Shown one piece after another: positions 9,453 through 36,092 of a stretch of DNA of 64,000 nt. The position numbers were made by a program, and so were the translations under genes. Under the pieces are notes generated by a model that had not been told where the DNA came from, ran no database searches, and was given only the letters and a program-made list of their open reading frames with translations. Every line of letters begins with the position of its first letter. Position 1 is the stretch's first letter. The stretch spans positions 186,001 through 250,000 of the forward strand of contig JAMKCF010000001.1 in assembly GCA_023634235.1 (NCBI GenBank), read 5' to 3'. The stretch is from Pisaster brevispinus (taxonomy: Eukaryota > Echinodermata > Asteroidea > Forcipulatida > Asteriidae).

Positions 9453-9938
9453 TACCGTGGTAATAAACACTACAATTAGTCTACATTTAGAAAGTTACAT
9501 ACTGTATATCTAGTTACATAAAATGTAAATCATTAAAGTTTATATCACTGTCTAACTGCTGTACCCTAACGATTTGACAGGCTGTACCGACTGTACGCTG
9601 ACCACATGCCTGGTACTACACTTACAAGCAACGTGGCAATTGCCTCCATGCCCCTGGTTATTGCATTGGTGCCCCTTGAAATGTGTTTTTCCCCATAAAG
9701 GTGCCCTTTTCAAAAGTGAAACTGCTTTGGTCTAACAAAAACGGTGTTTCACGTCTGAGTGACAGCAGGTGACAGTTTTATCTCTTCTTGGAAAGTGTTA
9801 TTTGTGAAAGGAACTGGAGGGTGAGATACGTCTCGACGTTTCCAGTAGCTTGCTCTGTCTGTCTTCATGACAATGAACTTTATTTGGGGCATATTACAAC
9901 TTTAGAGTATCAAACATTGGGCACGTGTTTCTATTTCA
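9453..9938. other. 3' flank of the PAN-SRCR gene
   Basis: No exon is seen here. It contains the poly(A) signal of the minus-strand gene that ends at 9939; the rest is unrecognised. Confidence 0.6.
9879..9884 (-). terminator. Poly(A) signal AATAAA of the PAN-SRCR gene
   Basis: A canonical AATAAA on the minus strand lies 55 bases after the stop codon of the last exon. Confidence 0.7.
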
Positions 9939-10213
9939 TTAACAGAATGATTTAAATTTCCAAAGCGCTTGCTGCGTGGAATCAAACCCCACGTACAACT
10001 CGCCAAAATAGGCGTCACCGGTCAACTCCAAAAATGGGTCGCCCTCTTCCATTGTTCTAACTGAGACGGTCCTGTTATTCCCGATGATACATATGTCTTG
10101 GTATTTATTCTCCTCCAAGATGGCTCCAGATGACGTCTGTTCTTTGGTCTGCAGTGTAGTGCTACTTGGGTCATGGAACGTTATTGTTGTCTCTGATGGA
10201 TTTCCAGACAACG
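9939..10213 (-). CDS. PAN-SRCR gene exon 9: FAMeT-like domain, second half and stop
   Basis: The last exon begins after ctttctttcag in phase 1, continuing YTI into TLSGNPSETTI, and holds GDPFLEL and YVGFDSTQQALWKF, the closing motif of FAMeT-like domains. The stop TAA is at 9939-9941 and the last residue is Cys. Confidence 0.82.
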
Positions 10214-13200
10214 CTGAAAGAAAGGAGAACAGAGAAGAAGAAAAAAAGAAGAACGCAATTAATCAAAAATGTGTAGAGCTACGGAGCGCCATTTAGAGCC
10301 AGCCATCCAGAAAACGATACACAAATCGACATGGAGCCGTTTTATAACGCAGAGCAAAAGTCCAGAAAATACTTAAGCCCTGGTAACTTCCCGGGGAAGT
10401 TTAACCCATGTTTGTTTTTACTCTTGATGCAATTGTGCTTGGAAAATTAACTGCACATTATGCTAATTTCAGGATTATCCCAGCAACCTCTACTGCGAAG
10501 CTGGGAGTTTGCCCAAGGGTTGTGAAAGCCAACTTGTCGAGTCTAGCATGAGAGGGGCTCAAGTAAGTCAGCGAGAAGAAGACAGGTTGACTTCTTAAAC
10601 TCTTTAAAATCTCCCGGGTCAGAATTGACCTTGATTCAGGGTCCTCAATGTTCGGGTTAGTTTGAGCCAGAGTTTGTGTCAACATGACTCACAAATGGGA
10701 CAATCTGACGGAGCATCCGACAACCTCTTTTCAACAGTTTCAACCTTTTTGTACTTGATTACATGAAAAGCTAATGTAGGATTGGAAACTTTAATGTTGG
10801 ACATACAATCATATTAAGGTATGCAGCAACACCATGAGTAGGTTTTGAAACTTGCATTAAGGGAGTAGTACAATCAAGTAAGGTTTGCATTGCAGTAATT
10901 AATACCAAGTATATGTGTAGGATTTTAAACGTTGCATGGTGGAGATAGTTATACAATCTAGTTATTAGGTTTGCCAGTAACTCCGTGTACATGAGTAGGA
11001 ATTGAAACTTTGCATGGTGGAGATACAATCGCTAGTATTAGGTTTGCGGTAACATCATGTGCAGGAGTAGGATTTGAAACTTTGCATGGTGGAGAAACAA
11101 TGTAGTGAGGTTTCAGAACACCACGTACATGAATAGGACTTGAAACTTTGCATGGCGGAGATACAATCTAGTAAGTTATTTTGTTGTAGTTGTACATACA
11201 AAATCTCTGTCTATGAGTTGTGGTGGCTCTATTCAGGTTATGAAAAGGACAACTCGACGTTTCGATCACTATGCTCTGATTGTCTGGAGTACTGAAATAG
11301 AATGATCATTATCAGAGATAGACATTTCAATGCTGAAAATCCAAGAAATAGCCTTTACAAACAACTGTATAAGCGGATCATTGACGACCATTTTCGTAAA
11401 CAAACAAAAGATTGATGATCGGTGCAACGCAGGTTTTTCCAAATGTACAGCTAATTGTATTCTATAAAGTAACAGTAAACATTTTATAATGATTTGTTAT
11501 TGGTTTATTACAGAATCACTCAGCAGTGTATTTCGAACGTTACACTCACTTATTGTGTACACGGGGTCTGGTAGATTTTCACTCCGGGAAAGTAAGATCC
11601 GAACTGTTCCGGCTGATTGTATAGAGATATCCACACGGAATGACACTGCGTCTACTGGCCGGAACGGGAATCGTGTGTTGAAGAAGCCATCCGTCCGGTA
11701 CGTTGGGCAGGCAACTGGGGAAAAAGATAATTATGGAGTAAGTACACCTGTTTGTTGTTGCTGTTGTTTTATGTGTTTTGCAGTTACTGCTTCTTGAGCA
11801 AAGCAACGGTTTTATTGCTGTAATTTTATTGTGCTCTAGTAAATGGTGTATTCGATCCTATAAATAATTAGAGATTCAAGCACAAGAATACATGTTTTGT
11901 TTTGTTTTGTTGGCTATTTAAAATCGGTATGTTTTTACAAAATGCTTCTCTTTTGATCTGTACTTACCAACACAAGTCAAACCAACATCTTGTCCGTGAT
12001 CACATGTTCCGTTGTCGTGCCAGTTACTATGGCTACACTGACTCAAATGGTTCTCACATCCACGACACTGCATATTTTTCACGTGAATAGCGCCCTCTCC
12101 TGGGCCAAATCTCAGGCTGAAATCTGAATTGGAAAAAAAGACAAAACAATGTAAAGGGTCTGTATACGTTTGGTAATGACTCTGAAAATTAAAGGCAATG
12201 GAAACTTACTTTGTAAGAAATACAGCAGCTTTGGATAGTATAATGCAGTTTGAGAAACATTTCATTTTGAAGTACTGCAGTTATGGAAAAAGATATCACT
12301 TTTTGTCCCAAAAACTTTGTATCTGAGAAACGTTACTGTCAGTAACGCTTCTCATGTTGTGTATTCCTGTTAGGAATTATTCCTCCTGTGTAGACATTTT
12401 TGCTCCGGATTTTCAGCGATATCTAAAAAATGCGACCAACTTTTGAAATTAAATGTTTACAGGTTATTTGTATTGTAGCCTACATATCTAATTTAGATTA
12501 AACCAATCAAACGGTTGCAGAAACTAAAGATATACTTTGCCTTTAATTGTAGATGGAATTAAGTGATGTTGGAAGTTTGTGCATGGTGTAGAAAATTAAG
12601 AAGTAACAATAGCAGTAAATTTGTGGGCACAACCATGTGTAAACTTCTTTTGGGAGTAGTGTTGGCTTTGGAAAGAACCGTAGTTGAATCTGGTGACAAG
12701 CATTCCAAACCGATAACCCCCTTCCAACTTGGCTGTTAGAATTGTGATTTACCACGAATTTTCCTGACTTCAGGTTTTTGTTCCACAAAATCTACATTTA
12801 TTTCAAAAGTGTTATAAAAGCCACGAGTGGTCCATCGAGTAGGATCACAGTGTGTTTATCCCAATCTCAAGTTTTGCAATGTGGTCTTAGTCCACCAATT
12901 AAAGTTCAGTTATCGTTATTATGTAAGTTGGTTCAAAGAAGAACATCATATTTCATCCACAGAGATACAAATTATGAGGTGAATTTTAGTTTGCAGTTAC
13001 GCCACGTCCTGTTAATCCCTGTCTTATTAACTGCAACTGAGTAGATTTGCGGACTGGGGACTTCTTAATTATCGTTACAATAATTACGAGGAAACTTGTT
13101 CTCCTGAGTGTAACAAGTTTGACCAATATTGCAACCTAACATCCAGACTACTCACATTGGGTCTTTATTGCAACCTAATATCCAGAGTGCTCACTTAGGG

Positions 13201-16200
13201 TCTGTATTGCAACCTAACATCCAGACTATACTCACATTGGGTCTTTATTGCAACCTAACATCCAGACTGCACACTTAGGGTCTTTATTGCAACCTAACAT
13301 CCAGACTACTCACATTGGGCCATTATTGCAACCTTACATCCCGACTACTCACATTTTGGTCTTTATTGCAACCTAACATCCAGAGTGCTCACTTAGGGTC
13401 TTTATTGCAACCTAATATCCAGAGTGCTCAATTAGGGTCTTTATTGCAACCTAACATTCAGACTACTCACATTGGGCCTTTTTACAGAGAGTAGCTCTCT
13501 TCTTCTCATCACATTTGTTTACATGCCAGCGGGTATCTCTGCGAATATGTAAACACTGTTGTTCATTGCTGTTGTCATCCCAGTCTTCTGCGCCGTCGGG
13601 TTGTGTTTCTGTAAAATAGGTCATACGATTCCCATCGAGCCAACGCTGGGGGCGCTTATACCTCCCTCCTGTAGAGACAATGAATCATTTAACATATCTA
13701 TTGATAAACTTAATACAGTATTATTCATTATCGAAGAGAAAGAAAACAAACAATAAATCTCAGAGGCCGATCTGGTTATCAAGATCACTCAGTACCAACA
13801 TTAAGAGATAAAGCATATATCCCTCTGAAATACTGCCAAAGTTGACCAAATAGCATTTAAAATACAAAACTACCGTTGCTTTTTTTCGATTGCCTAATAA
13901 GAGCGTCAACAAAGTTGCTGAAGAAACATGATTTGGTGTTTTACCCCTAAAACGCTTTTACTGTAAAAGAAAAAGAAAAAATGAAAGGACATAAAAAAAT
14001 AAATAATAATAACTAACTTGGTAAATAAATAAATAGGTAAATAAACCAATAAATTAATAAATAATTAAACAAATAAAAAACTATAAATATAAAAACAAAT
14101 ATAAATAAATAAATAAACAAAAATATAGATAAATAGAAAGTAAAAATAAGTAAATTGTATAATATTAAATGAGTAATGTATGATCCTTTAAAAATGACCA
14201 GTCTGACTCGGGAGCTGTAGGATCGATAACTTATTTGTAATTGCTCATAAACTCAAAATCTTCTCTGCAATAACTAAATTAACTAGGTTCACCTTGGGAG
14301 ACACTTTGAGCGCCGAGCCATGTGCCTTTATCATCGATGATTGTTAAATCCAGAACGAATTCCTCCTCACCCTTTGATAGAATACTGACCTGCAGTTAGA
14401 GTACAATGATTGCATACTCATTAGAACGAACTTTTGACCTGTGCCGATTTCATTATAAATCATACAGGCTCAGCCAGTACCAAAGAACTGAAACGAGTCT
14501 GGAGTCTGGTACCTTGGTACCCTGACTCTGCGTGACTTTGCAGTCCACTACGGTAACCGTTCACTACCGTGTCCTGTGTCTGTGACATTGGGGTATCTCA
14601 TACGTAGCTCTGGAAGCTTTTAATTATTTGTGTGAGTATTATTTTGAAAAGTGGCAATGATAAATTTGTTGATGATATTTATAGTATGGTGCATCCATAA
14701 GTTTTGGATGAATAATGAATGTTGTTGTTAATAGGCCGTCGTACTTTTTTCTTCCATTTTAGCAATAATCATGAATCCCAATCCAAAGTATACATTTTTC
14801 CTTTGATCACCTGCATACGACTTACCATATTAGATGATTGCTGCAAACAATCCTCTTGCGCCTCGTCGAAAGTTTTTCTTTCAAATCCAGTGAACAAGTA
14901 ACAAAAACCATCAAAGTATAGCCAGCCAGGATCGCAAACATAATCTAATTTATGAACAAAAGAATGATTTCATGTATGCACACCCGATAAACTCCCGGGT
15001 CATAACTAACTCGGATTCTGCTTCAGTTTGGCCAATTTCTTGGTAATTCTGACACAAATGTACCTTTAAAAATTCACTACTTAAAACAGAGGAATAATAG
15101 ACAAACGCGTAGGCCCTACACGTTTTGTTTATTATTTTTTTTACAAGTTTGAGAATTCTGTCAAAAGTGTTTAAATTTCGATCTATTCTGCCAACAGTGC
15201 ACAAATCACTTTACAGGGGCAACACTGACCTCCTTTTTACAAATATTTGTATTTTAATAAAGTTAAATAAAACACCCCAACGCTAAGGATACTTAATTAG
15301 GGTCCTGTAGCATATTATATTTATTAATGGTAGTCACCCAAAATGGTGTGAAAATGCACCTCAAGTAAAATGGATGTCTGAACAAAAGTTCACTGGGGAC
15401 ATGTTGACGATGAACTTACTATTCAAGTCAACTTACCGGTCCCAGGTTCTGGGGGAGGTAGAAGCCCCAGGGTTCTGCAGGCAACGACGGTGTCTTCCCA
15501 GTCCCAGTTGCTGGAACAAACTGTACCCCATTCTCCTAGAATATTGCTGTAAACCTCCAGACGGCCATGGCCTGGGGAGTACCCATCAACAAGCCTCCAC
15601 GGTACTGAGAAGACAAGAGCAACATTTATTTTGTTTCTTATAGTGGGTGTGGGGTTGGTACGGGGTTGGTACGGAGGATCAGAAATGCCACACAAGTTAT
15701 TAACAGCCGCTACAGCTGACCTGACATCATATAAAGACAAAACACGGCATTAACTGCAGTTTAAAATCTGATAGCTTGCTGATCACCAAGTATTAATACT
15801 AATGCACGAAGTAAGTGGTTATTTTTTGCAATACTGTCAAACTCTTGGAAATTATTTTAAAACTCCAAAATCACTGTTTTTAATATCGATTGCCGTCATC
15901 GAAATAAACCCAAAATGTATGTACACCAAAAGTTTACTATTTTGTAGTTGTTTAATCGTAACCTTTTGATTCGATGACAATGTTTAAGAGAATGGGAATG
16001 AGTTTAATCTTCCGGAAATCTCGACGCTTACCGTCACATGAGACGCTTCGACACCTGTCAATCTCGGTGGTTTCACCCACGCAGCCTTCCCCGGAACACA
16101 CCCTCGTGCGGTTCACTGTGCCATAACCACATTTCGATGCTGACGAACATTCTCCACTATTCACCCACGACGCCCACTCTAGCAATTTCAAATTGCACAA

Positions 16201-28200: not shown

Positions 28201-31200
28201 TAAAAGTTTGTTGTGGCTTTTTTTGATATCACGCTTAACAAAATTTCTAAATTTACGCCAACATTGATCACTGTTAGCAAAAGCTGATTGACGTTGCAAA
28301 ATCAATTTTTAATGTAAGGAGTGAGCCAAGGTTTATCACTGTTGTGGATGCTAATTTTTTTACCTTGACAAAACAAATTCAAGGCGAAGTCAAGCATGTT
28401 GTAAAAGGCATCAGCCTTTTCCTGAAGTACTAAACAATCAAAAACTGATTTCCAGTCTTGATTTTGAATCCATGTTCCAAAAGAGCGGACACAAGAATCT
28501 CGCATGGTACAAACATGTTTGGTAGTTATAGTATATTTTTTTTAAAGTGCAGTGTTTTGGTTTCCAGGTAATACAAACATGGTCACTCAAACCAACCGGA
28601 GCAAGAGCTTGGGGTTTGTTATACAAAGAAACCAATTTAGAATTAGCCAAAATCTACGGAGCTCTGGAAGTGCCATCCGACATGTTGAGATCCTGACATA
28701 ATTATCTCTGGATGACGACATCCTCAACGCAAACTAGTCGACATATCGAGATAATTATGTTGGGATCTTGACATCCTAAAGGTAGGATGTCATCTTGCTG
28801 TGATAATTTATCTCGGGATGTCGACATCCTTAAAGTAGGATGTCGTCTTCCAGTGATAATTTATCTCGGGATGTCGACATCCTAAAAGTAGGATGTCGTC
28901 TTCCAGTGATAATTTATCTCGGGATGTCGACATCCTAAAAGTAGGATGTCGTCTTCCTGTGATAATTTATCTTGGGATGACGTAGGCACGGGTGTCACTC
29001 GTAGGCCTATACTAAAAGATAAATCGCGAAGGCCGCGTGTACGACATGCTACCTTTAAAGATGTCGACATCCCGAGATAAATTATCACAGGAAGACGACA
29101 TCCTACCTTTAGGATGTCGACATCCCGAGATAAATTATCACAGCAAGACGACATCCTACTTTTAGGATGTCGACATCCCGAGATAAACTATCACAGCAAG
29201 ATGGCATCCTACCTTTAGGATGTCAACATCCCGACATAATTATCTCGGTATGACGACTAATTTGCGTTGAGGATGTCGTCATCCAGAGATAATTATGTCA
29301 GGATCTCAACATGTCGGATGGCACTTCCAGAGCTCCGTAAAAATCAGATCGAGGGTGGCTTCTTCGCGTGTGTAGAAGTCAACAATTTGGAATAATCGTT
29401 TCCCGTTGTAAGGGATTTAATCTTCATACGGTTAAAATCACCTAATATAATAATTCCAATTTCAGGATAATTGGTTCTCAAGTTATCAAATGTCCAATAA
29501 GATGTGTTTATTTAATAGGGGTTTGTTATACAAAGAAACCATTTTAGAATTAACCAGAATCAGGTGTGGCTTCTCCGCGTGGTCACTTGCAACAAAAACA
29601 CTGCCATCTCGGTTTGCGCACAAGCAAACCGCAAAGCAGTACATTATAAGTACAATATTATAATGTAGGCGTACTGTTTGCGGTTTTCACTGCCAGTGCC
29701 CTATGTTTGAACTACACAAGGTTGGTTAGCGCTACGTAAAGTTTTCTGTCGGTGTCTAGCCTCAATTATTGCCACTTTGTGTAAGTTGGAAAAAGCCTAA
29801 TCATGGCTTAATTGACCAAGGTTATTTAAGATTTTCCTCATTACTGTAGAAAACATCGGGAATTACGCAGGACAAGGCGAAACATTTCCAGCGGCAGCAC
29901 AGTATTTCGTCAAGAGCAATTTAGAAACACATACTGTTACAGGTAAATAATTTTGTACCGCATAAAAAGCATGGCCGCTCACTACTATAGTAGAACCGGC
30001 CATGTTAACGTCTGCATGATCGCCGGCTGCTGCCATGCCGAGTCAAAGCTCAGATGACCACGGTCGCCAGAAATGTCACGCACACGGTCTCCCCACAGTT
30101 ATATCATAGAGCAATGGTAATAATAACAGTACAGTGCATGCAGAGTACAGCTGCATTGAACTTGTTCTGCAGGCTTCCTGTGCACCACATTGATTAATTA
30201 TTCATGAACCAAGTAAAACGAGACCTCCAAATTATTGGCTTCCTCGGAAAGTCAGGGGAAGTTGGCAGAAAAACAAAGACAAAGTTAAGACCTGTCGTTG
30301 CAAAATGTGTAAAAACCTTGGTGGGACCCGGGGAAACAAATTTACAAAGCGCCCTCTATGTTTATTCATTACAAACGTGTACAGTGTGCGGTGTACATAA
30401 ATCTGAACTTGGGTTGTTTGTACGCGCGAACACCATGGTCTAGGAACCAAGACTACACGAGTTGACGTGGGTAAAGTTAACGTGGGTACGAGTTGACTCG
30501 ACTGCAAGCACATTGATTACGTGTATAACCCATGGGGATATAGAGTCTCAATAACCGTACATACACCTAAAGGGAAACTATTGTACGAAGCCTCACATAT
30601 TTTTTAGTGGCTGTATGAAACTATACCAGAATGCAGAAAACAACGATCATCTATTTCCTCAAACTCATCGTTGTAATTCATGTTTCATTTGAAGACATGG
30701 TAAAGTCGGATGGTCTACAAGCCGGGTACATCGGGAGTATTGTCTCCCACAGTGCATCGAGGCTGAGTGACCGCCCATTACCGCGGTATGGAACGTGAAA
30801 AACTCTTCAAAATGTTACGAACAATTCGGCGTGGACTTAAATCTAGATGCGTACAATATTGAAACGAACCGGGGGTCGGAGAAAAGCGTCATTGCATACT
30901 TCAATCACATTGATATAGGTATTTATCCATACATTGTGAATGGAGATAACAAGTTAGTACACGGTTGTTTTAATAAAAAAAAAAAAAAATTCTAGATGAA
31001 GATTTGTGTACAAAGTTCATAAACTCTAATAAATTTCAACAGGTTCATTTTTAACTACAATTTTTCATTTTTCCCTTTTTTTGGTAATATATAGCAACTT
31101 TTCGTGAAGTTGTTTTCAAAATGTTAAAATCATGCTGTTTTTCTTCATAAAATATTGCTGGAGGAACAAAGTAAGAATCGGGTGCACTCTTAAAAATATT

Positions 31201-34200
31201 TTTAACAGTCTTTTTATTTATACCTTTTCGTTAGCAAAAAAATGTGCAACATCTTGTACTCCAAACTATTATTGCATCATAATATCAAAGAAGAGTACGT
31301 AAATTTTTTATTTACAATGTATACTTCATTATTGGGAAAGCTGACCCCAAGAAAGAGTTTATTTGTGGTTCGAGTGGTAATAATTTTAGTAAGGGGATAA
31401 AATTTTCTATCCCTTGTTCCTCACTTCTGGCCGAAAAGAGGAGGGGATAGAATTTTCTATCCCTTGTTCCTCAAACCAAGCCGAAAGGAGTTGGGGATAG
31501 AATTTTCTATCCCTTGTTCCTCAACTCAAGCCGAAAAGAGGAGGAGATAGAATTTTCTATCCCTTATTGCTCAAATCCAGCCGAAAAGGGGAGGGATAGA
31601 ATTTTCTATCCCTTGAATAGAATTTTCTTTCCCTTGTTCCTAAACTTTAGCCGAAAAGTGGAAGGGAAAATTTGTTTTATCCTTTGCTGCTCAAATCAAG
31701 CGAAAAAGAGGAGGGGATAGATTTTTTTATCCCTTGAACCTCAAACCTGACAAAATGTGCAATATATTGATAAGAAATAACTGGAATTTAATTTTTTTTT
31801 ATTTGTTAGCCTAGAAAAATTAGATTGATTCGTAAAATCTGAAGCATGTTTTTCACAATTTGGAGGAGAAAATGGTAAAAGAAAATTTTGTTGCTTTAAA
31901 TTCCTGTTTCGATAGCAATTTTCGGACTATAATGAAAATTTTAAGCTGTAAATTTGAAAAATAACAAAAAATGAAAAAATGCAGTTAAAAATGAACCTGT
32001 TTTTCATAAGTTGTAAAACTGGTTGGTTTTTGGCACATTTTAGGAAGATCTGAACAACACAGTTTTGATGAGTGCGGAGAGAGGTTTGAATGGTGTCATA
32101 ATTTGGGGTGATAACTACGACACAAATAGCCAAGCAGCATGGTTGTCTACAACTTCAGTCTTACATCAAATGTGCTTTAGGCCCACTAGGTCACAAAATC
32201 ACAAAAGCTGCCAAGTGCTGCGGATATATGCAATAACCACGGCAGATGCATTGGGAAAATTCTAGAATGTATCGAGATGAAGGAGACGTGGAAGCCCATT
32301 CGTGACCACGTACAGAACGAGTCTGTTGGTCATTGTCATTGTGAGTGCAATGCTGGTTGGAGTGGTAGGCAGTGCAATGTAGTGGTAGGCAGTGCAATGT
32401 AGCCAATGACGGAATCAACGGTCTTGTCGAAACCAAAGCTCCAGCTTAAACTCATCCGGGTTCAATTTAGTGAGCAAGGAGTCGTTTGAGCTTCAGAAAG
32501 TGGAGGAAGCTTGCGGTGGAACATATTTAATCGTTTTTTTAAAAAGGCTTTTTTTAAAAATTCAAATCCAATGCGGCAACGTTCGGGACACATTCACATA
32601 TTCATAGTACTTGGTTACAAATTATTACCTGCCATGTGTTTCTGCATGGTACAATGGTGGAACACCTAAAATACTGATTTTTTTGAAAATGGGCGGAATT
32701 ATTGAAAAAATAGCAAAAACCTGCCCCAAAAAATAGTGAGGTATAGGCCTACTCTCAAAAGGGTTAATCACATTCAATCTGTGTTCATTGGAGTGGGTTT
32801 TAGCTTTAAAGTTAACTTTTTCACATTTCGCTGCCCCGCACAAATCACACGATAAGTCGCTTTGTAATTCGTTTAGCCTTTGTCTATGCTAACTTGAATG
32901 TTTAACTTCAACCTTGTACCATCTGCTGTAAACGCCCCTCTGACATTAAATTTTCTCAAAATAAATACAAACAAAAAATTGTTGTTTACCATGTTACTTT
33001 TTGCTTTAAAGTAATCATTCGCCCAACATTTTTGTCGCCGTCTTTGTGGCGTAAATATTAACCAGCGTTTGCCTCCACTGCCGCAGTTCACGGGCGGGGT
33101 TAAGCGCTAGATGACACGGGTTAGAAGTCACTCGAACGACAATGTATGACCGGGGGTTGGGGGGGGGAAGTTATTCGAAAGCACCCAAGTCAAACTTTTA
33201 AACCCAAATAGTGCAAAAGATAACTTGAAACTATAACTTGTGTACCGTTAGCCATTTACTAACAATAAGAATGCATGCTGTTTATTTGTAGTATGTACAT
33301 GTATACTTCTAAATATATTGCTTTAGCAGATCGTTCTTCCTGAAGACAAAACTATTTGAAGAAATATTACTTACAATTTGCGTTTAAGTAAAGGTGTTGA
33401 TAACTAATGTTTTGTGTTACTTGTAACGGAAGGAATTGTACAAATCGGGACATTCCTAAACACCAACAAATAATAATAAAGGTTTTATTTATGCCTAATT
33501 TGTAGAATAAAATAAATAAAGAATATTTTACTTCGTAAAATGCAAATTACCTGCGCAGATATCGTTATTCCAGCAGTTCTGATATTCTGAATCAATCCCT
33601 TCACAGCTTCCACTGTTGGCATTGGACCCCTGACACACTCTTGTTCTGCTTTGATGACCTTTTCCACAAGTTTTCGAACATTGGCTCCATGTTGACCACG
33701 AGGACCACCTCACTGTTAATAGAATATAATTAAAGTGAAGGTTTTTCTCATTATGTGGGTTTTCGAAACCACTGCTATCACTGTGTACGTTTTCAAGATT
33801 ACTGGCGTGGCCCAAGCCAAAGCCATAGCCGAAGCCTTAGCCAGAGCCTAAGCCGAAGCCTGGAATTTGGAAAGAGCCTCAAACATCCCTACCACTGACT
33901 GCACAGTCAAACTGACCCAAATAAATAAAATACACTTTTTCATGCCTAGCAAAATACAAGACTTGGATTCAACGATTTCATTACAAGTTCAATAACATGA
34001 CATTGGTTTTGAAAATGAGGTTGAATTTTCACAGAGAACTAAATAGTCGGTAACTGTAATAAATTTGCGTTGAATTCAAGCAATAAGACATGTTATGCCA
34101 AACTTACCACTGAATCGAGACGCACCATTTGAACAAAATAATATTTCGTTCGGTTTTGCTAGCCTACATTCGCTGAAGCATAAAGCTTAATGGCACGACC

Positions 34201-36092
34201 CACATGTACCCATGAAAAGTAAATTTATTTTCAAACTTAATATTGCAGTTCCTTAATCATTCATATGGTTTAAAAAAAATGCTTTTGGTATTCAGCAATG
34301 GTTTTATCTTTCTGGAATATTAGTCCCTTTTTCATTTCCACTCGCTTAACAAACAACCGTAATTTTATTCTTGAAGATTGTTGGAACATATTGATCGAAA
34401 CGTTGATACCTCGCCAAATCTTTTTAAAGCCTTCACAGCTCAATAGATTTCTTTGGGTGGTAAACCGCAAACATTAGTTTCTGTGTTATTGTTGTCATGG
34501 TCTACATTTTAATGTTATATCTAAAGCCACTGTTTTTAAACTTAGCACATGGTCTAACCTTCCATGACCTCACAGTAGTCGCCTCTCCAGCCGTTATCAC
34601 AGACGCATCTGTAGTGACGCGTTGATTCAAGAGAGCGCGTGTCCGGCACGCAGAACGCACCATTCAGACAACTGTGGTTGCAACATGGGCAGCTAGGTGA
34701 TTCGTCTATCTGCAGAAAACCACGCTTTATTTGTGAAGCAATTGCTATAAACTTTCAAGATTTAAGTAATTTTCTTGGATTTAAATGATACAGAAAACGT
34801 GAGTATCAGGAAATGCAACTCCAACTAGCTGTAGTCAGAAAATTTCCGTAAAGTCATTGAATATTACATTGGACGCAAACACGCTTATGATTGTGCGTAA
34901 AAAATGCAGCTGTGTCTAGTAGCTGGCTCATGTTATTCTGATATGGTATTCGTAGATCATTACATGATATGTTTTACTTGGTTAATTAATTAGTAATCAC
35001 ATTTCGTGCTTATTGCATGGCGCCATGCATGTAAAGTCACTGCCGTCATTTGACTGTTAAGTTGACTGTGGTAGCCCTTACCATTAAGATTTGTGAATCT
35101 CGGTCGAGATAAACCGGATTTTCATCACCAGTCCCCTTTACCAAATCTCCGGGGAAATCAAGCCGAGTGACCCCATTGAGCTCGCAGAGCCCACCCAAAG
35201 GGAAGTAGTTGAGAGACTTGCACCCAGCAAGGTTTACACACTGCAGACCGCATTGGATGAAACTTGTTACGTGATGAAGCGTACGAATCGTATGGTTCAG
35301 AAGTTGGTAGTTTCGAAGCTTATCGCCCAGACCTGCGTTTGTGATAAAATATTAAAGAACATTTTTGATATTTGGAAGTGAATAAGCTACAATCTGAGTG
35401 GTATTGATAATGGTAGACGGCAAATATATTCCTTTCCGGCCCTGCCACGAGCTTGGCTGTACTTCCTTACCCAATCACACTGTATAGTCTAAAGGTCTGC
35501 TTGGAAGTTAGTGGCGTTGCCTGGCTGTTAAGAGCACCAGATTCGAGCTCTGGAGATTCTGATCAGCAGAGTGTAGGTTCTAGTCCCTTTCCTGTCACAA
35601 AATACTTTACCATAACTCTTTGCTGTGTCCTTCGGATATGAAATTGAACTGTAGATCCATTGTATTAGGTTCGGTAGTGCACGTAGAATAACCCAGAACA
35701 CTTAATGTGGAAGAGTAGGGGTTTACCTTGGTGTTTCTGGTTCACAACCATTAAGCACCCTTGTTTGCATGTTTTCTCAAGTATTTTTTCCCTTTTTACA
35801 GCTTTACGCTAACATTCACTTCTGAAATACTCTCGAAACATTAAATAGATAGGCCTAATACAGACCATCAATCAAACGTTGTTTATTTCGTTTGCAGCAA
35901 TCGAAATAATAATAATACTTTTATTTTTAAGAACGCATACTATTAACCTTCCTCTGAGACTTCCGTGTATATCCGTATGCCTCCTTTTTACTTACCTGCC
36001 TTTGTGACATCATCAACTACTTCCAAGGTTTGTCCGCACATGATCTCTATCATTAAAACGACAACCATGCATGTAGCAGCTCTCAAAGCCAT
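9939..36092 (-). CDS. Secreted PAN-EGF-TSP1-TSP1-SRCR-FAMeT multidomain protein (9 exons, 523 aa)
   Basis: I joined nine minus-strand exons: 35996-36092, 35082-35332, 34559-34709, 33551-33712, 16032-16178, 15437-15604, 11968-12123, 11550-11714, 9939-10213. Every junction is AG/GT and every phase agrees, giving 1572 nt including the stop. Order: signal peptide (about 1-20), PAN/apple-type domain (33-116), EGF-like (117-166), TSP1 (167-220), TSP1 (221-269), SRCR (270-377), FAMeT-like C-terminus (378-523). These are extracellular adhesion or recognition modules. With no transmembrane segment the product should be secreted, plausibly an immune or matrix protein; no catalytic role can be assigned. 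The FAMeT-like domain (Methyltransf_FA) is widespread in invertebrate extracellular proteins and is not evidence of methyltransferase activity. An LTR retrotransposon sits antisense in intron 4, and three C-type lectin exons sit in intron 6. The exon chain rests on phase and domain continuity, not transcripts. Confidence 0.82.
10610..10710. repeat. Possible degenerate GGGTCA-rich element
   Basis: Phrases such as gggtcagaattgacc and gtgtcaacatgactc resemble the dispersed family seen clearly at 38.4, 48.4 and 55.0 kb. The copy is weak and without clear ends. Confidence 0.35.
10774..11176. repeat. Diverged minisatellite, about 70-bp unit
   Basis: Five to six degenerate copies share gtaggatttgaaactttgcatggtgg, here split as gtaggatttgaaac and tttgcatggtgg, followed by agatacaatc. 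They lie in intron 8 of the PAN-SRCR gene. Confidence 0.75.
11550..11714 (-). CDS. PAN-SRCR gene exon 8: FAMeT-like domain, first half
   Basis: Phase 1-1. It begins VACPTYR and includes FRVDISIQSAGTVRILLS and DPVYTI, which match the first strands of the Methyltransf_FA (FAMeT) fold. Acceptor tttccccag, donor ATAA/gtgagt. Confidence 0.75.
11968..12123 (-). CDS. PAN-SRCR gene exon 7: C-terminal half of the SRCR domain
   Basis: Phase 1-1. It continues the SRCR fold with FGPGEGAIHVKNMQC, LSQCSHSNW and a final GLTC. With exon 6 this gives a full-length SRCR of about 100 residues with conserved cysteines. This exon was found by hand on the minus strand, and its frame is short and has no ATG of its own. 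Confidence 0.9.
13125..13477. repeat. 39-bp minisatellite derived from the lectin stop-codon region
   Basis: About nine copies of a 39-bp unit (tattgcaacctaacatcc, then agactactcacattgg). On the minus strand each unit starts with the last codons and stop of the lectin exon and goes on to an AATAAA. Six of the eight downstream units keep AATAAA exactly; one has AATACA and one AATAAT. Confidence 0.9.
13440..13445 (-). terminator. First of several poly(A) signals behind the lectin stop
   Basis: AATAAA on the minus strand, 17 bases after the lectin stop codon, repeated in most 39-bp units downstream. Confidence 0.65.
13463..13668 (-). CDS. Lectin exon C: ligand-loop half of the CTLD and stop
   Basis: Phase 1 in. 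It holds RWLDGNRMTYF, the QPD triplet, and the last three canonical cysteines (CLHI, NKC, TLC). The stop TAG at 13463-13465 lies at the edge of the 39-bp minisatellite. The acceptor is tgtctctacag. Confidence 0.88.
13463..14944 (-). CDS. C-type lectin domain in three exons: alternative C-terminus or nested gene
   Basis: Three minus-strand exons (14826-14944, 14293-14389, 13463-13668) join in matching phases (1-0, 0-1, 1-stop) into one complete C-type lectin domain of about 140 residues. Motifs in order: CDPGWLYFDGFCYLF, FDEAQEDC, VSILSKGEEEFVL, TWLGAQS, WLDG, TQPD, CLHI, VNKC, TLC. QPD is the galactose-type form of the calcium and sugar-binding triplet; the usual WND is replaced by WHV-N, so binding is uncertain. 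No signal peptide or start ATG was found between exon 6 and these exons, and the first begins in phase 1. It can therefore follow exon 5 (TSP1) or exon 6 of the surrounding gene in frame. A nested gene with an unseen first exon is the alternative. Confidence 0.82.
13960..14170. repeat. Low-complexity A-rich tract (AAATA-type)
   Basis: A 200-bp stretch dominated by aaataaataa-type repeats between lectin exons B and C. Confidence 0.85.
14293..14389 (-). CDS. Lectin exon B: central CTLD strands
   Basis: Phase 0 in, phase 1 out, 32 codons. VSILSKGEEEF and TWLGAQSVS fit the conserved SI-S-E-F and WLG positions of CTLDs. Boundaries: aactgcag and CAAG/gtgaac. Confidence 0.82.
14826..14944 (-). CDS. 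Lectin exon A: N-terminal loop and first helix of the CTLD
   Basis: Phase 1 in, phase 0 out. It contains DYVCDPGWLYFDGFC and FDEAQEDCLQQ. The acceptor ataaattag is weak in pyrimidines; the donor ATG/gtaagt is strong. Confidence 0.82.
15437..15604 (-). CDS. PAN-SRCR gene exon 6: N-terminal half of the SRCR domain
   Basis: Phase 1-1. WRLVDGYSPGHGRLEVY, then GEWGTVC and VACRTLGL, are the start of a scavenger-receptor cysteine-rich domain. The exon stops at PEPGT/gtaagt and is completed by exon 7, 3.3 kb downstream. Three lectin exons lie in between. Confidence 0.9.
16032..16178 (-). CDS. PAN-SRCR gene exon 5: thrombospondin type-1 repeat (second)
   Basis: Symmetrical phase 1-1 exon with WASWVNSGEC, KCGYGTVNRTRVC and a closing CRSVSC. 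It is a more divergent TSP1 repeat than exon 4. It ends at GACG/gtaagc. Because it ends in phase 1 it could splice either to the SRCR exon or to the first lectin exon. Confidence 0.88.
16686..16740. repeat. Direct duplication of about 27 bp
   Basis: The phrase ggggcacattgccacctact followed by cct occurs twice in tandem. Confidence 0.85.
16800..17460. repeat. Degenerate tandem repeat with acgttgt/acaacgt motifs, about 65-bp period
   Basis: Units share cacgttgt, a stretch like gtattttggta, and attaaaacgtaat. They become more diverged towards 17460. No coding sequence is seen. The rest of 16.2-18.2 kb is unremarkable intron. Confidence 0.7.
18206..18277 (-). pseudogene. tRNA-like sequence (tRNA pseudogene or SINE head)
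   Basis: The minus strand folds as a 72-nt cloverleaf: acceptor GGCTGGA with TCCAGTC (one G-T), D-arm TAGCTCAGTTGGTAGAGT, T-arm with GGTTCAAGTC. The anticodon would be GTT, but position 33 is C instead of T, the anticodon stem ends in a T-T mismatch and the T-stem has one mismatch. These faults argue against a working tRNA. The LTR element inserted 31 bp beyond it. Confidence 0.5.
18309..19390 (+). repeat. 5' LTR
   Basis: 1082 bp starting TG and ending CA. A possible TATA-like tttaatatattt stands near 18335. AATAAA-type hexamers occur near 18855, 18958 and 19127. It includes two similar segments around gacgcgtggt (about 18700 and 18770). Confidence 0.95.
19393..19410 (+). other. Primer-binding site, tRNA-Leu(CAA)
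   Basis: tggtgtcagaagtgggat, two bases after the 5' LTR, is complementary to the 3' end of animal tRNA-Leu(CAA) including CCA. The tRNA match is from my knowledge of that tRNA. Confidence 0.8.
19500..19763 (+). CDS. Short leader ORF with one membrane segment (87 aa)
   Basis: ATG at 19500 opens an 87-residue frame between the primer-binding site and gag. Residues about 4-26 are strongly hydrophobic (VVYLFLIFLVIVVLILSGLL), followed by basic residues (RTRLELNRLRR), the profile of a type I-like or signal-anchor mini-protein. The rest is Ser/Thr/Arg-rich. It is not a known part of gag. Whether it is translated, acts as an upstream ORF that limits gag, or is chance, cannot be told from one copy. 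Confidence 0.45.
   Translation: MKDWLVVYLFLIFLVIVVLILSGLLIRTRLELNRLRRVAKEQSTTLLRIRCLASRTQSVGSLRSQSLTTSLDVTGSPGRRWLSVATV
19893..21380 (+). CDS. gag: Retrotransposon Gag polyprotein (495 aa)
   Basis: The first in-frame ATG is at 19893. Residues in the middle resemble the retrotransposon gag capsid region (YDGKVLWREYHRHF, then LRLLGDTG and LLERRFG). Near the C-terminus is one CCHC zinc knuckle, CFNCGQGGHLARECK, typical of nucleocapsid RNA binding. The frame ends at 21378-21380 and overlaps the upstream-open pol frame from 21287. It would package the element RNA in virus-like particles. Confidence 0.93.
   Translation: MSVGGKGTTDTLSVDAEIERLRMELQWSHMKKDLIAKRLEASLGHSAHGNMPPAHGRVRQGDFRDGFGAMGETTEAFRSPRELVNSDLLAPEVVPKSQNISFGESTPLRVGSPRTFPRTEISPMAEELSAQVDEDFITFFSGQGSRGPRSRKTNPFIEEVQDVNPRGTNPFLEESEVMTPKKEHQMVDGENQRTAVGRPNRRPNIVPDRYDGKVLWREYHRHFESCRDVNGWSDEQAARFLTASLHGNALRLLGDTGQRYTYRALVKLLERRFGPGRQSENFLVELRHRRQGPRETLQELGQVVLELTARAYPELQEDARERLAKNHFIDAVDSHTIREGINRARPRNLDEAVQAALETESFEKVEQQRLCDRKPPKLVRATDSDFEQRLGSMETNLGEQTRSLQTLAELLRSLVGQVRGSSSDKGVPSGDAHKPQQRQTGGRKCFNCGQGGHLARECKRPRKTEAKASGNAIQPPIGSVGRLDIAEDPKDLTVT
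21356..21362 (+). promoter_or_regulatory. Candidate -1 ribosomal frameshift heptamer CCCAAAA
   Basis: Read in the gag frame this is C CCA AAA, the canonical X XXY YYZ form, 16-18 nt before the gag stop. It lies inside the 94-nt region (21287-21380) where gag and pol frames overlap, and pol is in the -1 frame. I did not establish a downstream pseudoknot. Confidence 0.65.
21431..25351 (+). CDS. pol: Pol polyprotein: protease, reverse transcriptase, RNase H, integrase
   Basis: About 1306 residues, counted from 21431 (a GTG; the frame is open back to 21287 and is probably entered by frameshift, so there need be no start codon). Aspartic protease: DTGSTDTLIS at about 31. Reverse transcriptase: YLDDIIVFG at about 458. 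RNase H: DTDASGEGIG at about 603. Integrase: zinc-binding H-H-C-C around 847-895, then the D, D, E positions at AIDLLGP (about 918), SDQGRNF (about 979) and MVERFN (about 1015). GPW...HVDRLKPY near 1155-1190 is a GPY/F module. No chromodomain is seen; the tail is an acidic EEVTE-type repeat. No stop or frameshift breaks the frame. Confidence 0.96.
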   Translation: MITLPVSDTGPQFGLFVDGVVRATKCRFLIDTGSTDTLISSSVYYDIPEQQRPVLETQGVIVKQVDGSPLPVLGKADVEVQVGKTTRLVKAIFTGMKYPGILGMDFLVPTGGVLDFQSKEWRLNGEKIKCTSMAGDPFIGRVVVSRTIEIPSGHEAIVPGVISRGKTGAAGPGIVEPMEGGGGLAQKGLVLGRSLVNVASEVIPLRVFNPGKETRVAREGMTVGVLSQVETESINGGGGLTTEAEPGFPVHLQDLFDRGTTNVEGKHHGEIRKCLVDFQDVFSKGDHDIGRTNIVEHQIKTGDAQPIKERPRRHPHCNQQEIQRQVGELMERGVIEPSDSPWAANVVLVSKKDGTKRFCVDYRRLNAVTIKDAYPVPRIDETFDALHGAQWFTTLDLASGYWQVALDDDASEKSTFVVRNGLYRWKCMPFGLCNAPATFERLMEKIMAGLQWEILLVYLDDIIVFGKTVTETVNRLRIVLDRLRQAGLKLKPGKCHLFQKSVAYLGHIVSAEGVATDPKKVQAVAEWPVPKCVRDVRSFLGLASYYRKFIKGFAGIASPLHALTEKAREFVWTTACQEAFDQLKGRLQSAPILSYPVPEGNFILDTDASGEGIGAVLSQIQGGEEKVLAYASRKLSRPERNYCVTRRELLAVVVYLKNFKQYLYGRPVTVRTDHAALRWLLNFRNPEGQLARWLEVISQYDVTIEHRPGKKHGNADGLSRQQCKQCGRDEDMNNEIRGLTSEVKSQEGELRVRGLVAQPMIPQEEMRDTQLQDETMNWVLKYKEEGRSRGVWKTMSHLSAASKTYWALWDQLEVKEGLLYKRWESDDGRSVRWLLVVPKKFRRTVVDELHGGQLSGHLGVSKTLAKVKHRYFWVGMSAGIRSSLRACDLCARRKSAARKRRAPLQQYRVGVPMERVAIDLLGPLPRTDSGNLWILVVGDYCTKWMEAYPLPDSTARTVALKLVNEFVCRFGVPQELHSDQGRNFESDVFREMCQILGITKTRTTAYNPKSDGMVERFNKTLVNMVAVLIDPKRRQKDWDESLPYATFAYRCTPQESTGESPNMMMLGREVYLPVDLVTGCPEVQEGTDTDFAEKLRHNMQCAHERAKVCLGKSAKRQKQNYDRHASEHGLKAGQFVWLFNPAKKKHVSPKLQLRWEGPWLIVKKLSDVVVRIQQKRGGKFKVVHVDRLKPYVGEEREPWDGPYSEEVTESPLAEEVTALHEEVTERPLIEEVTTPQEEFQAVESLSEEAIVSEGELVPAMGNKGAEGPDVEVGSGPPEVVDRTPPRRNPRRNRRLPKRFLDRTVDR
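25396..25421 (+). promoter_or_regulatory. Splice-acceptor-like tract before the third ORF
   Basis: A pyrimidine-rich run (ctgtgttttttgtttg) ends in ttaacag at 25421, 15 bases before the ATG of the third ORF. This is where a spliced subgenomic mRNA would join. The matching donor in the leader was not identified. Confidence 0.5.
25436..26233 (+). CDS. Third ORF: C2H2 zinc-finger protein (265 aa)
   Basis: The frame starts at ATG 25436, after pol and before the 3' LTR, where env-like genes lie in some gypsy elements. It has no signal peptide or membrane segment. Residues about 20-43 form one C2H2 finger (CEQCQNSFSHRQ...HVRETH) and about 51-73 a second, less regular one (CKRCPYK...HHYSLCH). A Pro/Ser-rich linker of about 130 residues and a basic C-terminal segment follow. 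A nucleic-acid-binding accessory role is the natural guess; it is not an envelope protein. Confidence 0.85.
   Translation: MTGKRENTLVERRPKKPRRFRCEQCQNSFSHRQGLWRHVRETHGPVMLLYCKRCPYKAARRATFNHHYSLCHQSFMWEGRLIQAEVERKQSGPSVARLVAAGWRKAAETVSVAPPSPTENPTPEDQPMATPNELSFEQEESSDEVVISLSPTPISPLQRPVSPEPLSAPLPVVLPPRGKPRGMMALAASTSPPGSPSSDTSMPALERVLPRRKATTETASQTPPGRVRVKALVKDQRTRLFFHAGREVKREEFCVTYEEWVDITN
26234..26936 (+). other. Untranslated region between the third ORF and the 3' LTR
   Basis: A+T-rich and without a credible ORF. The expected purine tract is not adjacent to the LTR; the nearest is ggagagaaggaagag at about 26771-26785, some 150 bp upstream. Confidence 0.7.
26937..28018 (+). repeat. 3' LTR
   Basis: Same 1082-bp length as the 5' LTR, and it reads as identical to it throughout. 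It is followed by atat, the right copy of the target duplication. Confidence 0.95.
28080..29600 (-). pseudogene. CR1/L2-like LINE fragment (endonuclease end and linker)
   Basis: Read from 29500 downwards, the minus strand gives YPEIGIIILGDFN, then SDHVCITWKPK, which are the conserved end of an AP-type endonuclease domain, and then DKPWLTPYIKN, the motif between endonuclease and RT in CR1/L2-type LINEs. Frameshifts occur, and a foldback element interrupts the endonuclease at 28655-29339. No RT domain is seen in the window, so this is a 5'- and 3'-truncated relic. A second, diverged short copy of the insertion-site segment is at about 29520-29590. Confidence 0.75.
28655..29339. mobile_element. 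Foldback element with long inverted repeats
   Basis: The outer arms (tacggagctctggaagtgcc...) are inverted copies, and each arm continues inward as tandem units of about 58 bp, built on gataatttatctcggg and gatgtcgacatcc, almost to a short unique centre near 28980-29040. The 6-bp sequence aaaatc flanks both ends (28649-28654 and 29340-29345), a target-site duplication. There is no coding capacity. Removing the element and one aaaatc restores an open LINE endonuclease frame. Confidence 0.9.
29850..29942 (+). other. Orphan exon-like segment (93 nt)
   Basis: A good acceptor (cctcattactgtag) and a good donor (TTACAG/gtaaat) bound 93 nt that is open in phase 1 (NIGNYAGQGETFPAAAQYF...). I recognise no domain and found no partner exon. 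It could belong to the hyaluronidase relic downstream or be chance. Confidence 0.25.
30631..32400 (+). pseudogene. Hyaluronidase (GH56) pseudogene
   Basis: The ATG at 30631 opens a signal-peptide-like start. A one-base frameshift near 30780 then shifts to the frame giving AVWNVKNSSKCYEQFGVDL and IGIYPYI, which is the N-terminal part of glycosyl hydrolase family 56. After a 1-kb gap an acceptor at 32041 leads to EDLNNTVLMSAERG and GVIIWGDNYDTNS, then in other frames LGPLGHKITKAAK and the EGF-like CNNHGRC...CECNAGWSG, which form the usual C-terminus. At least two further frame breaks lie near 32170 and 32230. The catalytic middle (the Asp-x-Glu segment) is missing. An intron-like acceptor is retained, so it is not a processed copy. 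It lies inside intron 4 of the PAN-SRCR gene on the opposite strand. Confidence 0.8.
31394..31740. repeat. Tandem repeat of about 50 bp with a hairpin in each unit
   Basis: About six to seven copies of ggggatagaattttctatcc plus cttgttcctcaa and agccgaaaagagga. The segment gggatag...ctatccc is a perfect inverted repeat in most units. Confidence 0.85.
33551..33712 (-). CDS. PAN-SRCR gene exon 4: thrombospondin type-1 repeat (first)
   Basis: Symmetrical phase 1-1 exon. It has the TSP1 pattern WSSWSTWSQCSKTCGKG followed by SRTRVC and later paired cysteines. Its donor, GCAG/gtaatt, opens the 17-kb intron that contains the LTR element. Confidence 0.92.
33811..33860. repeat. Imperfect hexanucleotide repeat (GCCGAA/GCCAAA type)
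   Basis: Eight variants of the hexamer agccra/gccaaa in a row, in intron 3 of the PAN-SRCR gene. Confidence 0.85.
34559..34709 (-). CDS. PAN-SRCR gene exon 3: EGF-like domain
   Basis: Phase 0 in, phase 1 out. The pattern C-x-CC-x3-C-x4-G-x2-C, then CVCDNGWRGDYCE, is a standard EGF-like module. The acceptor is ttctgcag and the donor GGAAG/gttaga. Confidence 0.85.
35082..35332 (-). CDS. PAN-SRCR gene exon 2: PAN/apple-type domain
   Basis: The exon reads in phase 1 and out phase 0. Cysteine spacing in CGLQCVNLAGCKSLNYF, followed by GGLCELN, is typical of PAN/apple domains, which bind carbohydrate or protein ligands. Splice sites: acgcag before the exon and ATG/gtaag after it. Confidence 0.82.
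35490..35770 (+). mobile_element. tRNA-derived SINE
   Basis: The head (gtggcgttgcctggctgtta, then ctggagattctgatcag and the B-box-like ggttctagtcc) is tRNA-derived. The body (gtgcacgtagaataacccag, then aggggtttaccttggtgttt) is a type common in marine deuterostome genomes. It lies in intron 1 of the PAN-SRCR gene. Confidence 0.65.
35996..36092 (-). CDS. PAN-SRCR gene exon 1: signal peptide
   Basis: The ATG at 36090-36092 begins a signal peptide: a short basic start, a hydrophobic core with MVVVLMI, and a small-residue end near MCG. An in-frame ATG at 36200 would put a hydrophilic stretch before the signal, so I prefer the inner start. The exon ends at GCAG/gtaag in phase 1. Confidence 0.8.

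Follow-up and report, generated by a model that had tools for sequence, protein, structure and literature searches.

Exon organization and domain composition of the gene

The minus strand of the window (the whole 64-kb stretch of DNA analysed) carries a gene of mosaic structure between positions 36092 and 9939. When the exons were re-read and spliced, nine of them joined in frame to encode a protein of 523 amino acids with the domain order signal peptide, PAN, EGF-like, TSP1, TSP1-like, SRCR and FAMeT, followed by a stop codon. Exon 1 (35996-36092) holds the start codon and the signal peptide (MALRAATCMVVVLMIEIMCGQ...) and ends with a phase 1 donor. Exon 2 (35082-35332, phase 1 to 0) codes for the PAN domain, exon 3 (34559-34709, phase 0 to 1) for the EGF-like domain, exon 4 (33551-33712, phase 1 to 1) for TSP1 and exon 5 (16032-16178, phase 1 to 1), which has a weak acceptor, for the second, TSP1-like domain. 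The first half of the SRCR is located in exon 6 (15437-15604, phase 1 to 1), of which both acceptor and donor are strong, and the second half in exon 7 (11968-12123, phase 1 to 1). The FAMeT-like domain is divided between exon 8 (11550-11714, phase 1 to 1) and exon 9 (9939-10213), which includes the stop codon and is followed by an AATAAA at 9884. Three further exons of the same strand were found within the phase 1 intron which splits the SRCR between exons 6 and 7. These exons, LA (14826-14944, phase 1 to 0, weak acceptor), LB (14293-14389, phase 0 to 1) and LC (13463-13668, phase 1 to stop), represent the start, middle and end of an intact C-type lectin domain (CTLD). All 12 exons proposed in the first-pass annotation of this DNA possess GT/AG ends and compatible phases. 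The splice-site scores are based on vertebrate consensus frequencies.

Most of the domains were recognised by Pfam profiles in the spliced protein. The SRCR (PF00530) scored 80.8 bits against a cut-off of 26.1 and covered positions 2-99 of 100, Lectin_C scored 47.4 bits (cut-off 22.6) over positions 2-107 of 107, TSP_1 in exon 4 scored 50.2 bits (cut-off 21.6) and PAN_1 in exon 2 scored 26.1 bits (cut-off 21.4). Exon 3 alone gave 18.7 bits with the EGF profile (cut-off 21.5), and exon 5 alone gave 16.0 bits with TSP_1 (positions 4-49 of 49, cut-off 21.6) and shares 38% identity with exon 4 over 47 amino acids. The FAMeT assignment (PF12248, 28.9 bits, cut-off 24.2) comes from the spliced domain, its own exons being absent from the exon-wise family listing of the genome. 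The best match of the spliced domain to any other part of its own genome had an E value of 1.8, suggesting that the FAMeT domain of this gene is very divergent.

Exons 6 and 7 when joined give a full SRCR, which matched 26 sequences of solved structure including SRCRs of CD163. Group A SRCR domains have six conserved cysteines. The conserved cysteine pattern is present here. Two cysteines are located in exon 6 and, as read by eye, exon 7 has five; at the position of the extra one (CRGCE), N, H or T occurs in the printed CD163 repeats. The first-pass annotation had described a stem of five exons with signal peptide, PAN, EGF and two TSP1 domains, which was found as described, the EGF and the second TSP1 remaining below the Pfam cut-offs. 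The four downstream exons which it had assigned to an SRCR and a FAMeT-like domain were likewise found in frame with both domains above the cut-offs, and its three lectin exons with their own stop are present on the same strand in the SRCR-splitting intron, with Lectin_C above the cut-off. Splicing also verified that exons 5 and 6 end in phase 1 and that LA starts in phase 1.

Integrity and age of the lectin exons

The CTLD is open over 138 codons in three exons with matching phases. Long-form CTLDs possess six cysteines, and all six are retained here, at positions 4, 15, 33, 111, 125 and 134. Random stretches of the three exon lengths were free of stop codons in fractions of 0.109, 0.155 and 0.036; the open CTLD exons are more than chance would give, even before the domain match is counted. 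Five of their splice sites are good and one, the LA acceptor, is weak when compared with the vertebrate consensus. CTLDs which bind sugars in a Ca-dependent manner carry an EPN or QPD motif together with a WND motif. The present domain has QPD at position 95 and WHV in place of WND, and sugar binding is not claimed because the WND motif is missing.

An exon-wise search of the genome for CTLDs, in which 150 of 193 candidates were scored, listed 52 matches. Three of these are the exons of this gene, and the other 49 share 25-39% identity with it and lie in open frames of 166 amino acids or more. No close source copy of the CTLD is present among the matches listed with this number of candidates scored. 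As no close copy was found, the CTLD is probably old and retained. A close source would be expected for a dead copy of recent origin; none was found, and the CTLD does not look like such a copy.

Probable assignment of the lectin exons to the gene

No in-frame ATG was read in LA ahead of the CTLD, and no signal exon was found by eye in the intron directly upstream of it. Like the exon anatomy, the phases and the open frames, this absence of a lectin start from LA and the preceding intron is directly observed. A strict scan for signal exons, defined as an ATG with a hydrophobic core and a phase 1 donor, gave 0 matches between exon 4 and LA, and its only match on the entire minus strand of the 64-kb window was exon 1. 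Two relaxed scans between exon 4 and LA gave 3 candidates (0.161 per kb against a background of 0.141 on either strand) and 10 candidates (0.537 per kb against 0.500 on the plus and 0.375 on the minus strand). All but those starting with the ATGs at 30156 and 29644 fall in the LTR element which occupies part of this region, and the best of the weak candidates in intron 4, 30156-30084, has a hydrophobic core and a donor score of 5.0. Neither the strict nor the relaxed scans revealed an own start for the lectin clearly over background. The earlier statement that no start codon or signal peptide for a separate lectin gene could be found was therefore borne out by the missing ATG in LA, the empty strict scan and the near-background relaxed scans.

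The length of intron 4 does not by itself indicate a gene boundary, because 9.7 kb of its 17 kb is a young LTR element. The lectin exons have no usable start, their phases fit those of exons 5 and 6, and they are located within the gene on its own strand, looking intact and not recently copied. The best reading of the sequence is that they belong to the same gene as the stem.

The two possible ends of lectin exon LC

The end of LC reads ...TGT AAA AAG GCC CAA T|GTGAGTAG, in which a donor-like site (AAT|GTGAGT, after base 13471) precedes the TAG stop at 13465-13463. This inner donor is among the top 1.3% of GTs by score against the vertebrate consensus, and its phase 1 fits exons 7, 8 and 9, whose acceptors have the same phase. 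With the minisatellite excluded, 96 of 127,218 positions carry an equally good donor, which is a rate of 0.75 per 1000 nt, and in this sequence a stretch of 30 nt has a probability of about 0.0075 of containing one in the required phase. The first-pass annotation had overlooked this site, through which the lectin can continue into exon 7 or exon 8 without a change of frame.

An AATAAA starts 18 nt past the stop. A 39-bp minisatellite (13127-13481) begins at the end of LC, and on the minus strand six of its nine listed units contain AATAAA, several units repeating the donor-like letters and AATAAA together. The signs of a terminal exon in LC (TAG and AATAAA) are weaker than the evidence for the donor, as the probability of an AATAAA within 30 nt is 0.037 and this one is part of the minisatellite unit. 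When the own stop is used, the CTLD gains a seventh cysteine (...KAQCE), whereas the donor leaves exactly six. The two uses of LC do not exclude each other, and the exon can either splice on or be the last exon.

Possible splice products

Six spliced products were tried. None contained an internal stop, and each named junction keeps the frame. Exons 1-6 joined to 7, 8 and 9 give the 523 amino acid protein, and all 12 exons in order, with the LC donor used, form one open frame of 661 amino acids. Exons 1-5 followed by LA, LB, LC, 8 and 9 give a CTLD-FAMeT protein of 553 amino acids. With the stop in LC the product has 409 amino acids if LA is entered from exon 5 and 465 if it is entered from exon 6. 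The upstream exons are in phase with both tails, the one ending in LC and the one ending in exon 9.

The first-pass annotation had proposed that alternative splicing provides one stem with two C-termini, SRCR-FAMeT or lectin. The single gene and the fit of the phases to both tails agree with this proposal; the two-tail outcome is not established by them, since the LC donor allows other outcomes. If exon 6 were joined to LA (15437/14944) and the LC stop then used, the SRCR would be cut to one half, the two cysteines of which lack partners. The junction of exon 5 with LA is clean but needs exon 6 to be skipped, and the strong splice sites of exon 6 count against such a clean exchange of SRCR for CTLD. 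A lectin with its own stop as the alternative C-terminus thus appears as one branch among several, and from the sequence we consider it rather unlikely. The CTLD may instead be an internal module which retains the FAMeT end.

The position of the CTLD in the SRCR was compared with the printed alignments of CD163 repeats. In five of the six fully printed alignments, small gaps lie no more than about five residues from the exon 6/7 junction, which places the putative insertion point near a stretch of the SRCR which tolerates insertions and deletions. The termini of CTLDs lie close to each other, and a CTLD nested in an SRCR is therefore structurally thinkable. We know of no SRCR with an inserted CTLD. 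That the CTLD is spliced into a surface loop of the SRCR, either always or as an optional cassette, is possible but on balance unlikely.

Exons 6 and 7 alone form a full SRCR, which implies either that the lectin module is skipped at times or that the SRCR tolerates the insert. The weak LA acceptor would fit optional inclusion or frequent skipping of the module. It is no proof of skipping, because the acceptor of exon 5, an exon needed by every isoform, is nearly as weak.

Proposed organization and alternative explanations

The arrangement at this locus is real and unusual, and the best bet from these data is one gene in which the CTLD module is alternatively included. As a specific reading, one gene with an optional LA-LB-LC module and LC as a composite last lectin exon is favored tentatively, at a little under an even chance. 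The symmetrical phase 1-1 module would sit in the phase 1 intron that splits the SRCR of a secreted mosaic gene, would be transcribed from the promoter of exon 1 with use of the exon 1 signal peptide, and would be present in only a part of the transcripts. When the module is skipped, exon 6 would join exon 7 to give the SRCR-FAMeT protein of 523 amino acids. When it is included, LC would act as a composite exon. Its donor after 13471 could join exon 7, giving the 661 amino acid form with the CTLD in a loop of the SRCR, or, with exons 6 and 7 skipped, exon 8, giving the 553 amino acid CTLD-FAMeT form. Alternatively, the transcript might end in the intron past the TAG, giving the 409 amino acid form from exon 5 or the 465 amino acid form from exon 6. 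Each of these forms would be secreted, and the CTLD would add a binding surface to the PAN-EGF-TSP1 stem or replace one. No junction is supported by conservation, because the searches revealed neither an orthologue nor a paralogue of the whole gene. An immune role of this gene, as suggested by the first-pass annotation, is inference only.

The module could also be present in every transcript, so that a gene of 12 exons always produces the protein of 661 amino acids with the CTLD between the SRCR halves and without alternative splicing. The single open frame of the 12 exons, the good phase 1 donor of LC and the strong sites of exon 6, which is hence expected to be normally included, are in favor of such a constitutive gene. 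The gapped CD163 alignments near the exon 6/7 junction point in the same direction, as does the CTLD with exactly its six cysteines and with the close termini that loop insertion requires. The weakness of the LA acceptor and the completeness of the SRCR without an insert argue against it, and we consider it unlikely. The lectin exons could otherwise be left over from a former domain or gene and no longer be spliced into mRNA. The weak LA acceptor, the lost WND motif, the minisatellite which has expanded at the end of LC and the surroundings, which gather debris such as hyaluronidase pieces and the LTR element, are consistent with decay. The 138 open codons with matching phases across three exons, the five good splice sites beside the weak one, the retained six cysteines and the lack of a recent source copy among the genome matches listed are not what a relic would be expected to show, and this explanation is given a still lower chance than the constitutive gene.

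A separate nested lectin gene on the same strand, with its own promoter and signal-peptide exon and no exon in common with the stem, appears the most improbable of the explanations weighed here. A signal-peptide exon could equally well be joined to the phase 1 acceptor just ahead of the CTLD, weak candidates such as 30156-30084 exist in intron 4, and a stop and an AATAAA come at the end of LC. However, the intron immediately upstream of LA contained no signal exon by eye, the strict scan was empty and the relaxed scans stayed near the background rate, and a start in intron 4 would need splicing over exons 5 and 6.

Search for related genes

Three protein searches, with 3983, 536 and 81 candidates, revealed no relative of the whole protein. 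The largest gave six proteins at E values up to 0.001, namely one fish protein with SRCR domains, four spondins and one TSP1/astacin protein. The second gave no protein among its candidates, and the third found two TSP1 proteins at E values up to 10. Tandem copies were sought with 11 exon peptides in the window, in 200 kb of flanking sequence and in eight CTLD loci, and no copy of the gene was found. The non-self matches in this comparison were those of the TSP1 exons to each other, those between LA and five of these CTLD loci, and two weak EGF matches, at 32319-32384 and at the locus L018 (E 0.046).

Inspection by eye of the PAN/TSP1, FAMeT, SRCR and CTLD matches listed exon by exon for the genome revealed no second locus in which these domains are clustered, and hence no paralogue of the whole gene among them. 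The closest pair of PAN and CTLD noticed in these matches was separated by about 45 kb on C1 (27.17 and 27.21 Mb); for FAMeT and CTLD the shortest distance noticed was about 110 kb, on C2 (15.86 and 15.97 Mb). The genome has at least 145 other SRCR matches, and all of those listed continue past the point of the exon 6/7 junction in one piece; the search was exon-wise with 149 of 399 candidates scored, so that split SRCRs could escape it. About 15 of the 145 SRCR matches listed have a stop codon inside the matched stretch. Dense clusters of single-piece SRCR matches, some with internal stops, were observed, for example at C2:13.62-13.65 Mb, C7:9.16-9.17 Mb, C8:2.86-2.91 Mb and C28:2.11-2.14 Mb.

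The mitochondrial genetic code points to an echinoderm. Cytochrome oxidase 1 of this assembly, located on a contig of 16.2 kb, contains 12 TGA codons that are read through, and translation with code 9 yields a normal protein. In the matched stretch all 8 of 8 AAA codons correspond to asparagine of the mammalian protein, and 3 of 6 AGA codons to serine, as in the mitochondrial code of echinoderms and flatworms. Taken with the 550 Mb of the genome, its chromosome-size contigs and its many SRCR and FAMeT exons, this favors an echinoderm, a sea star being a guess.

Another gene of the same genome, L053 (G000:C16:8013340-8014440), also has a signal peptide (by eye) and a PAN domain, 38% identical to that of the present gene, ahead of a recognition domain. 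Its profile scores are 30.1 bits for PAN_1 and 231 bits for Fibrinogen_C. It differs in being a single exon with a fibrinogen-like (ficolin-like) head and in having no TSP1, SRCR, CTLD or FAMeT. Since L053 combines PAN with a fibrinogen-like domain, a PAN domain followed by a recognition head is a design used in this genome. Many of the other PAN matches listed are situated in open frames of about 330-350 amino acids and may belong to the L053 family.

Comparison with known systems

FAMeT domains are known from the sea star footprint proteins Sfp1, 3, 4a, 5, 7 and 8 (PMC9382459). Like these, the present gene codes for a secreted echinoderm mosaic with a FAMeT domain, and some Sfps also have EGF-like domains (PMC9382459). 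In contrast to this gene, SRCR and C-type lectin have 0 mentions in the main text of that paper. Sea urchin SRCR domains are encoded by one exon apiece, and gene duplication is the route described for their diversity (PMC10855680). The present gene resembles the echinoderm SRCR superfamily covered there in its clear SRCR homology and in a genome rich in SRCR exons; it differs from the one-exon domains of sea urchins in that its SRCR is split by an intron which holds another domain (PMC10855680). SRCR and CTLD occur together in one predicted ctenophore protein (PMC11797021). Neither nesting nor a PAN-EGF-TSP1 stem is described for it in the consulted part of that paper, and alternative splicing has 0 occurrences in its main text. 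The domain partners of invertebrate SRCRs are named in PMC7308585, where the part consulted mentions neither FAMeT nor this design. No description of this domain combination was found in the limited literature searched, of which the sources were seen in part, and no priority is claimed.

If the gene makes lectin-bearing and lectin-free proteins from one stem, it would represent diversification by the splicing of whole recognition domains. Alternatively, if the CTLD is nested, it would be a case of one recognition domain inserted within another, and a single splicing choice may then set whether the SRCR is plain or lectin-bearing. The locus is a clean example of a domain module within the intron of another domain, the other SRCR matches listed being in one piece. 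Related species could show whether the intron was gained before or after the module was inserted.

The immunoglobulin heavy chain mu gene has an exon with an inner donor which either splices on or ends the transcript with an intronic poly(A) site. LC could work like this switch between secreted and membrane forms, the likeness being one of mechanism only and not of homology. The mu switch trades a tail for a membrane anchor, whereas LC would choose between recognition domains.

Contents of intron 4 and other features of the window

The LTR element in intron 4 (18309-28019, plus strand) lies antisense to the gene and is Ty3/gypsy-like as judged from its long ORF (21287-25351). The LTRs at its two ends do not differ from each other over 1083 bp and it shows an apparent 4-bp target duplication (ATAT), suggesting that the element was inserted very recently and may be polymorphic. 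For the first 152 bases of the LTR at least 29 matches exist in the genome, of which 16 are identical and full-length, including the two of this element. A second ORF of the element (25388-26230) gave a weak zinc-finger match below the cut-off. At its left LTR the element lies within about 30 bp of a tRNA-Asn gene (18205-18277, minus strand). Targeting of tRNA genes by the element is unlikely, and the about 180 bases upstream of three other copies hold no tRNA gene.

Pieces of a hyaluronidase (PF01630, cut-off 23.2) were found on the plus strand of intron 4 at 30771-30995 (30.5 bits) and 32044-32262 (20.2 bits, below the cut-off), along with an EGF-like stretch at 32190-32399 (EGF_2, 21.4 bits, slightly under the cut-off). 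Taken together, the stretch of 30771-32402 resembles a nested gene that is broken or incomplete.

Outside the gene, the minus strand carries an intronless arylamine N-acetyltransferase-like open frame of 300 amino acids at 118-1020 (PF00797, 56.8 bits). A regular repeat array at 43630-44853 is open in three frames over 387-407 amino acids and is a repeat-made ORF rather than a gene. An exon of a Ras-type GTPase lies at 47580-47813 on the minus strand (PF00071, 81.7 bits), and its likely last piece at 45055-45354 on the same strand scored 16.6 bits, below the cut-off. A coiled-coil-like stretch was also observed at 56634-56951 (minus strand), and our guess is that it and the GTPase exons (45055-47813) perhaps form one RASEF-like gene.
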